Of a DNA stretch of 58,387 bases, positions 879 to 12,178 are shown one piece after another (position 1 is the first letter of the stretch; each line of letters starts with the position of its first letter). Below the pieces are notes generated by a model that saw only the letters and a list, made by a program, of their open reading frames with translations, had not been told where the DNA came from and ran no database searches. Location of the stretch: contig JACRGX010000024.1 in assembly GCA_016212185.1 (NCBI GenBank), positions 1 to 58,387 of the forward strand, given 5' to 3'. The position numbers and the translations under genes are program-made. The DNA is from Nitrospirota bacterium (GTDB lineage: Bacteria > Nitrospirota > Thermodesulfovibrionia > UBA6902 > DSMQ01).

Positions 879-2162
879 ATGTATTCACTGTTCCGTCATA
901 TAGGCTCTGTATTTTGCAAGCGCAATCCGATTCATCTCACTGTTTTTCTGACCAGAAGGTGCAATCAGAGATGCCCGTTCTGCTTTTATCTTAAAGATGC
1001 GGAGAATCTAAAAATCCCCCCTTACCCCCCTTTGCCAAAGGGGGGAAGGGGGGATTTGGAAAGTGGTTCTGCTCAGGAAGTGGAACTATCTCTTGAAGAA
1101 CTCCAAAAAATTTCTTCATCCATCGGCAATCTGCTCTGGCTGGCGTTCTCAGGTGGTGAGATATTTTTAAGGAGCGACCTTGTTGAAATAAGCAAGGTTT
1201 TTTATGAAAACAACAAGCCTGCAATAATGCTGTATCCCACTAACGGGATGCTTCCTGAGGTAATTAAGGACAAGACAGAGCAGATTTTAAAGCACTGTGA
1301 AAATTCTGTGATAGCAGTAAAGCTTTCTGTTGACGGGCTTCAGGCAAGGCATGATGAAATCAGAAACACACGCGGCAGTTTTGATAAAACCATGCAGACG
1401 TATCAAATGCTCGCCGGACTCCTTGAGAAATACCCGAATTTTGAGCTTGGCATAAACACTGTGTTCTGTTCTTTAAATCAGGACGAGATGAACGGAATAA
1501 TTGATTTTGTCAGCGGGCTTAAAGATATAAAGACGCATACAATTTCCCTGATACGCGGTAATCTTAAGGATGAAGATTATAAAAAAACGGATTATGAAAA
1601 ATATCATCACGCCATAGAAAGACTTGAAAAAAATTTAAAGAATAAGACCTCGTCTATTTACCGCTTCAGAGGCGCGCGCATTAAGGCAGCGCAGGATATT
1701 ATTCAGCGCAGGCTCATTCATGAAACAATGATTCAGAAAAGGCAGTTAATCCCCTGCTATGCAGGCAGATTAAACCTTGTTCTGACAGAGACAGGGGATG
1801 TCTATCCCTGCGAATTTTTCAGCGACCGCATGAAATTTGGAAATGTAAAGGATGCGGATTATAATCTGAGGCAGGTCTTAGAAACTGAGAGGGTGCAGGG
1901 AATTATAAGATTGATTCAAAACAACGGCTGTTACTGCACGCATGAGTGTTATTTTATGACGAATATACTTTTTAATCCCCGCATGTATCCGGCACTGCTT
2001 AAGGAGTATTTAAGCATGCACTCCTTACATTTTAGTTTCTCTCCTGAAAACACCTTCTTTTACCCACAGCCAAAACAGGCTTTTAACTCCATTCAGTCCG
2101 GCCCTGAGGTCGCTGAGGCTTCTGATTCCGGCGAGTCTTTTCAATATAAACCCGGGCCTTGA
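879..2162 (+). CDS. Radical SAM/SPASM protein with in-frame palindrome insert
   Basis: Radical SAM enzyme of 427 residues. The 4Fe-4S motif CNQRCPFC has C28, C32 and C35, and SGGE follows at 91-94. Near the C-terminus a Cys-rich stretch (CYAG, YPCEF, CYCTHEC) looks like a SPASM auxiliary-cluster domain, so it probably modifies a peptide or acts in cofactor or lipid chemistry; the substrate is unknown. Residues about 45-60, just after the cluster motif, are encoded by a GC-rich palindrome (1012-1057) that looks inserted in frame. The last 45 or so codons run antiparallel through the 3' end of the convergent B12 radical SAM gene, so the original stop may have been lost. An AAGGAG lies 22 bases before the chosen ATG, further than normal, so the start is less certain. 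Confidence 0.75.
   Translation: MYSLFRHIGSVFCKRNPIHLTVFLTRRCNQRCPFCFYLKDAENLKIPPYPPLPKGGRGDLESGSAQEVELSLEELQKISSSIGNLLWLAFSGGEIFLRSDLVEISKVFYENNKPAIMLYPTNGMLPEVIKDKTEQILKHCENSVIAVKLSVDGLQARHDEIRNTRGSFDKTMQTYQMLAGLLEKYPNFELGINTVFCSLNQDEMNGIIDFVSGLKDIKTHTISLIRGNLKDEDYKKTDYEKYHHAIERLEKNLKNKTSSIYRFRGARIKAAQDIIQRRLIHETMIQKRQLIPCYAGRLNLVLTETGDVYPCEFFSDRMKFGNVKDADYNLRQVLETERVQGIIRLIQNNGCYCTHECYFMTNILFNPRMYPALLKEYLSMHSLHFSFSPENTFFYPQPKQAFNSIQSGPEVAEASDSGESFQYKPGP
1012..1057. repeat. GC-rich palindrome inside a coding region
   Basis: A 46-bp near-perfect palindrome. The arms run from AAATCCCCCCTT to AAGGGGGGATTT with an inner CCCCCCTTT/AAAGGGGGG pair, a 3-base loop and a single unpaired base. It is read through in frame and adds a PPYPPLPKGG-like segment to the radical SAM protein. 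The same G/C-run type of palindrome occurs between genes at 12082-12178, so this is probably one copy of a dispersed family. Confidence 0.75.
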
Positions 2163-3524
2163 GTAAAATTTCTTAAATGCCAGTTGTCTTAATTCCGCAA
2201 TCTCCTGCCTTGTCATTGAATAAGGGATAAATGCCGCGCCCTGATATGTGAAATCCGCAAGATCGCCGGACATGGCGCCGTATTTTTCTATGTTATCGTA
2301 AATCTCTGTGCCCGGGAATGGCGTGAGCGCGTGAAAATTGGCAATGTCTGGATTAAGTTCACATGCAAATTCTATGGTCTTTAAACCGTCTTCAAATGTC
2401 TGCCCCGGAATGCCAAAAAGAAAGGGCGTATAAACTGTCAGTCCGGCTTTCTTTGCCGCCTTTACTGCCTTGCATGTCTGCTCAAGGGTTATGCCTTTTC
2501 TAATGGTGGTTAAATCTTTTTGCACGCCGCTTTCTGCGCCAAAGAGGATGGCCCAGCACCCTGCATCTTTAAATGCCTTAAGCAGGGGCAGGTCCACCTG
2601 ATTGACGCATGCAGAGGCAAACCATGTGAAATCAAGCCTGCGTTTTTTAATCTCTTGAGTTAATTTCATTGCCCTGTCGTAATCAGCGGTAAGTGTATCG
2701 TCAATGAATTTTATCTCCCTGTAACCCTGTCTAAGGCAAAGCTCTATCTCCTGCATGACATTTTCTATACTGCGGAAGCGTATGCCGTGTTTTCTCTCTT
2801 TATCAATCTGAAAACAGTAAATGCACCTTCTGTTACAGCCCCTTGAGGTGATGATGACAGCCACGGGACGCCTCTTGTATGTAGCAGGCGGCGGGATGTA
2901 GCTGTCTGCATCTTTTAGAAGCTCGCGCGCAGGAAAGGGCAGGGCGTCAACATCTGTAATGAGGGGATGCGGTGGATTTTTTATGATTTTATTGCCGTCT
3001 CTGAATACAACGCCTTCAACCCCTTCAAGGCTTTTGCCTTGAGATAATTTCTCCAGCATTTCAACTACGGTAATCTCGCCTTCGCCGGTGACCACTGCGT
3101 CAATATCTGTTGAATCCTCAAGGCACTTTTCCTGCATTGCGATAGGGTAGGGCCCGCCGACGGCGATGAAAGGGCGGTTTGCTAACCCCTCCTTATTCAC
3201 CCCCTTATTTAAGGGGATGATTGGCGGGGTTAGCTGCTTCAATATTTGTCTGACCTCTGACGCCGTGAAAACCGCCTTTTTCCATCCGAAGGCAGTGGAG
3301 TAAATGCCTATGAAGTCAGGCCTGTAATCTGATACATGCCGCAGGATTTCTTTGCGGCTCATAAAGCCGCCGTTTAAGAACTTTACGTCATGACCTGCTT
3401 TTAACATGGAGGCGGCAACGTAGAGCGTTCCCAGCGGCTGCCAGTAGTTTATCTGCGAGCCTGCCGTCTTTGAGGAGAAGATATCTTCAGGCGACCAGGC
3501 GGGGATGATAAGGGCGCATTTCAT
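2025..3524 (-). CDS. B12-binding domain radical SAM protein
   Basis: Cobalamin-binding radical SAM protein of 499 residues. The N-terminal part (about 1-165) is a B12-binding-like Rossmann fold with the VTGEGE motif; the radical SAM core carries CNRRCIYC at C230, C234 and C237. Family members do methylations, ring contractions or lipid modifications; the exact reaction cannot be told. Start chosen at the ATG 3524, behind GAGAGGGA, rather than a TTG six bases upstream. Residues about 98-115 come from a 54-bp palindromic insert (3181-3234). The C-terminal tail (FYSRPGFILKRLAGI) looks conserved for the family, so this gene's 3' end is real and the opposite gene is the one that overruns. It lies 150 bp downstream of the FAD protein gene on the same strand. 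Confidence 0.85.
   Translation of the reverse strand: MKCALIIPAWSPEDIFSSKTAGSQINYWQPLGTLYVAASMLKAGHDVKFLNGGFMSRKEILRHVSDYRPDFIGIYSTAFGWKKAVFTASEVRQILKQLTPPIIPLNKGVNKEGLANRPFIAVGGPYPIAMQEKCLEDSTDIDAVVTGEGEITVVEMLEKLSQGKSLEGVEGVVFRDGNKIIKNPPHPLITDVDALPFPARELLKDADSYIPPPATYKRRPVAVIITSRGCNRRCIYCFQIDKERKHGIRFRSIENVMQEIELCLRQGYREIKFIDDTLTADYDRAMKLTQEIKKRRLDFTWFASACVNQVDLPLLKAFKDAGCWAILFGAESGVQKDLTTIRKGITLEQTCKAVKAAKKAGLTVYTPFLFGIPGQTFEDGLKTIEFACELNPDIANFHALTPFPGTEIYDNIEKYGAMSGDLADFTYQGAAFIPYSMTRQEIAELRQLAFKKFYSRPGFILKRLAGIRSLSDLRAGLNGVKSLFWLWVKEGVFRRETKM
3181..3234. repeat. 54-bp palindromic element inserted in frame in a CDS
   Basis: The ends are perfect 9-bp inverted repeats, GCTAACCCC and GGGGTTAGC, with an inner CCCCTTA/AAGGGG hairpin. 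The length is exactly 54 bp, 18 codons, so it adds the segment LTPPIIPLNKG and following residues without breaking the frame of the B12 radical SAM gene. It interrupts the B12-binding domain between its helix (RQILK) and the strand FIAVGGP. Confidence 0.75.
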
Positions 3525-3543: not shown

Positions 3544-3636
3544 TGTCATGCCCCGATTTGTCGGGGCATCCTTCTTTCATCTCCCTCTGTCTCGCAGAAA
3601 CACGAAAAAAAAGATTCCCGACAAGCGGGAATGACA
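3544..3636. repeat. Intergenic GTCAT...ATGAC palindromic element
   Basis: The spacer between the FAD protein gene and the B12 radical SAM gene holds an element that starts TGTCATGCCCC and ends GCGGGAATGACA. Internally it has GCCCCGATTTGTCGGGGC and a CCCGACAAGCGGG stem. Its outer ends are inverted and match those of elements at 5169-5251 and 19767-19890, so it belongs to a dispersed repeat family. Confidence 0.65.
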
Positions 3637-5101: not shown

Positions 5102-5168
5102 GTTGGACTATAACCATACAGAATCTTTACTAATGAAATCGTAAGTAAAGCGACATTTCCGGCTATTC

Positions 5169-5251
5169 TGTCATTCCGGCTTGTCCGTCCCGATGCATCG
5201 GGATTTGTTTTCAGAAGGATTCCCGATCCCGAAATTTCGGGAGGAATGACA
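5169..5251. repeat. Intergenic GTCATTCC...GGAATGAC palindromic element
   Basis: An element with inverted ends TGTCATTCC and GGAATGACA, containing CCCGATGCATCGGG and CCCGAAATTTCGGG palindromes. Same family as 3544-3636 and the core of 19727-19927. The rest of the 268-bp spacer 5048-5315 holds only the terminator and AT-rich sequence. Confidence 0.65.
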
Positions 5252-11980: not shown

Positions 11981-12081
11981 ATAAAATATGATAATAACAA
12001 TATATGAAACAAAACAATACAATTTTATTCAAGGGATATTGAGCTTGTAATTCTCTGTGGTCTTGCCACAGGGTCTCCACT

Positions 12082-12178
12082 AATCCCTCCCCCTTGATGG
12101 GGGAGGGCGAGGGTGGGGGTGTTTTCAGTTTTTTTCACCCTCCCCTTCATCCCCCTCCCGTCAAGGGAGGGGAGATTT
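12082..12178. repeat. GC-rich double-hairpin repeat element
   Basis: Two perfect hairpins, CCCTCCCCC-ttgat-GGGGGAGGG (12085-12107) and CCCCTCCC-gtcaa-GGGAGGGG (12152-12172), are separated by a T-rich middle and flanked by short CCCTGxGG/CCACAGGG-like inverted words. Together with the promoters at each end this accounts for most of the 410-bp gap 11886-12295. Open frames through it are byproducts of the repeat. Confidence 0.65.

Follow-up and report, generated by a model that had tools for sequence, protein, structure and literature searches.

An in-frame palindromic repeat in a B12-binding radical SAM gene of a groundwater Nitrospirota genome, and the reuse of gene loops by unrelated repeat families

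The palindrome within a B12-binding radical SAM gene of the window (the whole 58,387-nt stretch of DNA that was analyzed) is very probably an in-frame copy of a 50-bp repeat, P50, in a loop of the B12-binding domain, belonging to one of several families that disperse by a putative mobilizer, with frame-keeping copies surviving and the same loops being reused. Presence or absence of the insert relative to orthologues, conservation of the reading frame, the existence of multi-copy families and loop hotspots in three genes are direct observations, and the evidence throughout is MAG sequence. The source is a groundwater MAG of an uncultured member of the Nitrospirota (Thermodesulfovibrionia) with a genome of 2.33 Mb, and its congener is the groundwater MAG JACQZD01 (92% protein identity).

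The palindrome is real. Its two ends carry GCTAACCCC/GGGGTTAGC arms (12-nt arms, 92% complementarity), and it folds at -14.8 kcal/mol as DNA (z -4.79) and at -34.3 as coding-strand RNA (z -6.31), values equaled by 0 of 200 dinucleotide shuffles in both cases. Pfam assigns residues 29 to 157 of the host-gene product to B12-binding and residues 226 to 389 to Radical_SAM, and the palindrome falls within the former match; the protein is matched in 72 of the 101 genomes searched. On the coding strand the segment is translated as ..KQLTPPIIPLNKGVNKEGLANRP.., and the predicted peptide encoded across it spans QLTPPIIPLNKGVNKEGLANRPF. The arms, the fold z-scores, the open frame of 501 aa and the Pfam match bear out the preliminary description of an in-frame palindromic insert that splits the B12-binding domain, and a different in-frame palindrome in the neighboring gene, also described there, is likewise present. 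The two genes converge with an overlap of 138 bp (window positions 2025 to 2162), and the product of the neighboring gene runs about 43 residues past the end of its match to the congener orthologue. Palindromic repeats of other types lie near gene ends at window positions 3545 to 3570, 5160 to 5250 and 12081 to 12178 (e.g., GCCCCGATTTGTCGGGGC).

Table 1. Palindromes and host genes in the window
Feature	Position	Strand	Remarks
Palindrome	3181..3234	.	9-bp perfect outer arms and inner CCCCTTATTTAAGGGG hairpin
P50 unit, TAACCCC...GGGGTTA, 50 bp	3183..3232	-	Coding strand reads LTPPIIPLNKGVNKEGL; copies in relatives
Host gene, B12-binding and radical SAM protein, 501 aa	2025..3530	-	Pfam
Neighboring gene, radical SAM/SPASM protein	879..2162	+	Pfam; orthologue loops empty or otherwise filled
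Type A palindrome in neighboring convergent gene	1012..1057	+	Read as NLKIPPYPPLPKGGRGDL

The preliminary description took the element to be 54 bp, or 18 codons, and proposed a genome-wide search for further copies with the same ends. An exact search with GCTAACCCC..GGGGTTAGC ends recovered only the window copy from the genome, and the repeat was therefore redefined: aligned copies give a 50-bp unit, TAACCCCTCCTTACTCCTCCCCTTATCTAAGGGGAGGATGGGTGGGGTTA, with small variations, so that the flanking GC/GC counts as a 2-bp extension in the window copy. BLAST within the same genome found, in frame in an O-methyltransferase gene, a 50-nt copy with 77% identity, together with two partial or short matches to the segment; the window copy is nearly the last of its family there. 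The pattern TAACCCC-N30-44-GGGGTTA was matched in 32 of 101 genomes (the source genome and relatives), a minority of the listed matches not being palindromes of the P50 family, while a backwards control was near zero; the strict P50 core CCTCCCCTTANNTAAGGGGAGG was found in 25 of the 396 genomes from the phylum and its control in none. Among the copies fetched from relatives, 17 of 23 lie inside open frames of ≥190 aa, and the intragenic copies mostly read TPPILPLDKGRSKEGL or NPSLLLPLDKGRMGGV. Pfam identifies the host genes as CobB (three genera), UvrD, HemN, a nitrogenase-like protein and an RNA methyltransferase. Two of the repeat copies outside frames (L154 and L116) are each flanked by two different identified genes and are therefore intergenic rather than situated in broken genes; this check settled some, not all, of the copies outside frames. 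The P50 core was also present in 16 stretches of IMG/VR viral contigs, and only one of the viral copies checked was inside an open frame of >200 aa. One such contig (L207) has P50-like cores between phage structural genes, and two others (L206 and L210) also carry such cores. Rfam gave no family match at five loci with copies, and a literature search on the encoded peptides found no paper in the collection covered.

Several observations bear on the fate of the insert in the protein. An AlphaFold model based on a 30-sequence alignment (mean pLDDT, 71.5) has pLDDT values of <50 at residues 102 to 117, between a helix (residues 83 to 100) and a strand (residues 121 to 125) of the B12-binding domain. 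Low confidence and position together suggest that these residues, where the insert peptide falls, form a flexible surface loop. The insert would be translated as a linker peptide and may be neutral. Copies of other inserts differ between congeners in ways that keep the frame: the shared MoeA copies of the two congeners are set apart by deletions of 12 nt within the palindrome and 21 nt beside it, and the shared TruB copies by a compensating -1/+1 pair. Selection for frame on translated segments would produce such indels, whereas splicing or bypass would give no reason to expect them. Short, GC-rich intragenic hairpins of this sort recall the byp elements of yeast mitochondria, by analogy with which the inserts might be cut from the mRNA or skipped by ribosomes. 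We give this reading very little credence, however, as the net lengths are multiples of three, the inserts are free of stops and later indels keep the frame, none of which bypassed DNA would need.

Comparison of the same loop across orthologues places the window copy in a longer history. The loop interval of 73 distinct orthologues is 54 to 60 nt in most, i.e., empty. It is 117 nt in the window gene and 57 nt in the congener, a difference of 60 bp; 102 nt in three relatives with P50 and 87 nt in one with a shortened P50; 63 nt in fifteen orthologues, of which about 10 carry or retain a GTAGGGGCGGG..CCCGCCCCTAC palindrome; 84 nt in four with an AGTCAGA tandem; and 105 to 147 nt in three with type A or B repeats. 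The net length of the loop insert is a multiple of three in every case. The preliminary description held that a homologue gap other than 54 bp would speak against insertion, and the gap relative to the congener is indeed 60 bp; the insertion nevertheless stands, since several inserts have occupied the site over time and the repeat unit measures 50 bp. A difference of 54 bp does separate the window gene from the 63-nt form, but in several species that form is a GTAG palindrome in its own right. GTAG palindromes are dispersed, with up to 70 per genome. Within a single genus, P50, type A, GTAG and tandem alleles are all found in the B12 gene loop, and a gene tree built without the loop requires at least 18 changes of insert type.

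These comparisons also bear on whether the segment could instead be a native loop dating from early in the protein family, its palindrome having arisen by chance or been kept by selection for an mRNA hairpin. The hairpin in the coding RNA is stable, and three relatives (L042, L050 and L078) have the same type of loop in common. However, the insert is absent from the congener and from most orthologues, unrelated repeats fill the loop in other species, and the P50 sequence, when looked for outside the gene family, recurs in unrelated genes and genomes; a native loop is accordingly extremely unlikely. The preferred reading, insertion of a dispersed repeat, is matched by what is seen in other genes, as the loops of three genes (the B12 gene, the neighboring gene and HemN) are insertion hotspots. 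In HemN at least four repeat families are spread over two such sites, the second of which offers a clean case of a 42-nt difference, to the nucleotide, within one genus. As in the B12 gene, net insert lengths in the neighboring gene and in HemN are multiples of three. The HemN loop, in the congener (L242) and in the source genome (L272), is occupied by unrelated repeat families in many genera, including those of the SRVGGNP...RRNDGK and PNPLPSRE...SPRGRG kinds, and could serve as a marker of repeat turnover.

The insert in the neighboring gene belongs to a family different from P50, type A, with the pattern AAATCCCCCC..CCCTTTGNCAAAGGG..GGGGGGATTT and the ends AAATCC/GGATTT. The loop of this gene is empty in most relatives and holds type A in the window species and in the congener, whose gene has the same type A insert with a second repeat nested inside. 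In two genera (L186 and L184) the loop contains an in-frame repeat, PVRKETSQVGxDKKNTEFSNGVN (CCCGTTAGAAA..TTTCTAACGGGG). The preliminary description attached meaning to the adjacency of two inserts, which we do not retain: the families differ, as do their ages, since the neighbor's insert is common to the congener and that at 3181 to 3234 is not. With about 35 to 40 intragenic type A copies among roughly 2,300 genes (estimated), chance alone would place such a gene beside a few per cent of all genes, and two inserted genes side by side are a mild coincidence.

In the source genome, CCCCTTN1-6AAGGGG palindromes other than type B, i.e., type A, are intragenic in 32 of 34 cases, compared with 5 of 12 for the similar type B (Fisher p = 4e-4). 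All 20 type A copies taken from the congener (13) and the next genus (7) are in coding frames, that of one copy (L231) being only 131 aa long. Pfam identifies the hosts of type A as MetG, PriA, MoeA, a class III aminotransferase, a HAD hydrolase, UDG, TldD, PurL, GlnE and TruB; most host frames scanned are conserved genes, and a few are without a Pfam match. A pyruvate/ferredoxin oxidoreductase (POR) gene has two type A inserts, and linkers of the NPPSPPFDKGGMGGF type are predicted in TruB, MetG and PurL. Type B repeats (AATTCCCCCTTANNAAGGGGG..AGGGGGTTGTT; L144, L150 and L165) are mostly intergenic and at times paired, which makes them a natural contrast to type A. Paralogous TPR-containing proteins of the same genome (L155, L170 to L173 and L175) each have at least one palindrome, as well as other repeats (LPTGQAGP).

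The intragenic bias could reflect targeting rather than survival, with repeats actively preferring coding DNA, e.g., through a mobilizer whose targets are transcribed or single-stranded hairpins. An insertion into a gene should usually do harm or shift the frame, and yet type A is almost wholly intragenic, in two further species as well as in the source genome, where type B is mostly intergenic. However, the type A fraction is no higher than the 92% coding share of the window and thus gives no sign of landing in genes beyond chance, intergenic copies may be lost sooner through decay or deletion, and no mobilizer or target motif was found. We therefore regard active targeting as unlikely. The suggestion in the preliminary description that coding targets are tolerated or even selected is a reasonable one: tolerance with filtering by selection is well supported (type A, 32 of 34; P50, 17 of 23), and active targeting would be a step beyond these data.

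How the repeats move and how this copy arrived are separate questions. No excess of direct repeats, as expected of target-site duplication, was found around 22 type A copies; the flanks of P50 were inspected for it by eye only. The genome has six Y1_Tnp genes, and a Y1_Tnp/RAYT mobilizer was considered and rejected, as none of the six is flanked by P50 or type A palindromes. The type A extended core was in no contig of the IMG/VR viral set. Among relatives, the L089 gene is ∼95% identical to that of L095 except for a tract of ∼45 nt with a GTAG palindrome, and L050 compared with L096 behaves alike; in both pairs the palindrome stands in place of native loop codons rather than being added to them. 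L089, compared with L095 and L091, looks as if short-tract gene conversion had swapped the loop alone. The window allele, palindrome included, might similarly have been gained by short-tract homologous recombination from another lineage and not by insertion, a route compatible with the preferred explanation in that it concerns only the arrival of this copy. In its favor, identity between the window gene and the congener dips to 69 to 77% around the loop, compared with 80 to 97% elsewhere; however, relaxed constraint near the loop would also lower identity, and no candidate donor carrying a matching tract turned up for the window allele. We consider this route possible, though somewhat doubtful. 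Insertion and local recombination probably both act, and mobilization may be transposase-like.

We propose the following. Unrelated palindromic families (P50, type A, GTAG-tagged and others) would have spread through Thermodesulfovibrionia genomes via a putative mobilizer, and the survivors would be those copies with a net length that is a multiple of three and no in-frame stop, in loops that tolerate changes in length. A loop tolerant of one insert would be used repeatedly, and its alleles may also pass between lineages by short-tract recombination. The P50 copy of the window would lie in a loop of this kind, on the surface of the B12-binding domain, and be translated as a flexible linker. 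It is improbable, in our judgment, that Nitrospirota have a repeat system specialized for intragenic life, in which proline/glycine-rich linker palindromes and their mobilizer fill the same tolerant loops as shared landing pads, with turnover within a genus. In a free-living phylum, one repeat family is found almost only in conserved enzymes and several unrelated families reuse loops, which offers a natural experiment on the lengthening of proteins by mobile DNA, on the sites that tolerate insertion and on repeat movement without a known transposase.

Among known systems, the inserts appear to work like Rickettsia palindromic elements (RPE), in a version of their own in Nitrospirota. It was in Rickettsia that palindromes of the protein-coding kind were first reported, and the title of a 2002 paper calls them unique there; intragenic REPs of other genomes were listed in 2013 (PMC3733652). 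RPE (Ogata et al. 2000, 2002, as described in PMC10969869 and PMC3733652) are ∼150 bp long, and nearly half of the first-reported R. conorii elements are in ORFs (PMC10969869). As with RPE, the palindromes are dispersed and multi-copy, with several families per genome, and form in-frame inserts in unrelated, often housekeeping genes that remain intact, without evident impairment; PMC3733652 lists the tRNA pseudouridine synthase B gene among the targets known from Rickettsia and from other bacteria, and TruB has an insert here too. Compared by published description, they differ from RPE in unit size (42 to 50 bp), in their host (free-living Nitrospirota of groundwater, where RPE belong to obligate intracellular bacteria) and in the almost wholly intragenic location of type A.

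GTAG/CGTC-tagged REPs are 20 to 40 bp long and mainly intergenic, with some intragenic in frame (Di Nocera et al. 2013; PMC3733652). They too are small palindromes found in part in frame inside genes, and the GTAGGGGC...GCCCCTAC palindromes in the B12 gene loop of several relatives look REP-like. In contrast, P50 (TAACCCC/GGGGTTA) and type A lack a GTAG or CGTC foot, are longer, are mainly intragenic and show no RAYT association, given the absence of these palindromes beside the Y1_Tnp genes. MITEs, too, are short, have inverted ends and lack a transposase gene, but the repeats described here are almost fully palindromic rather than consisting of two terminal repeats around a spacer, have no target-site duplication around the type A copies and have no parent transposon among the Y1_Tnp genes, the only kind looked for. 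What sets the present families apart from these known kinds is the size, the tags, the lifestyle of the host, the degree of intragenic location and the presence of unrelated families in shared loops.
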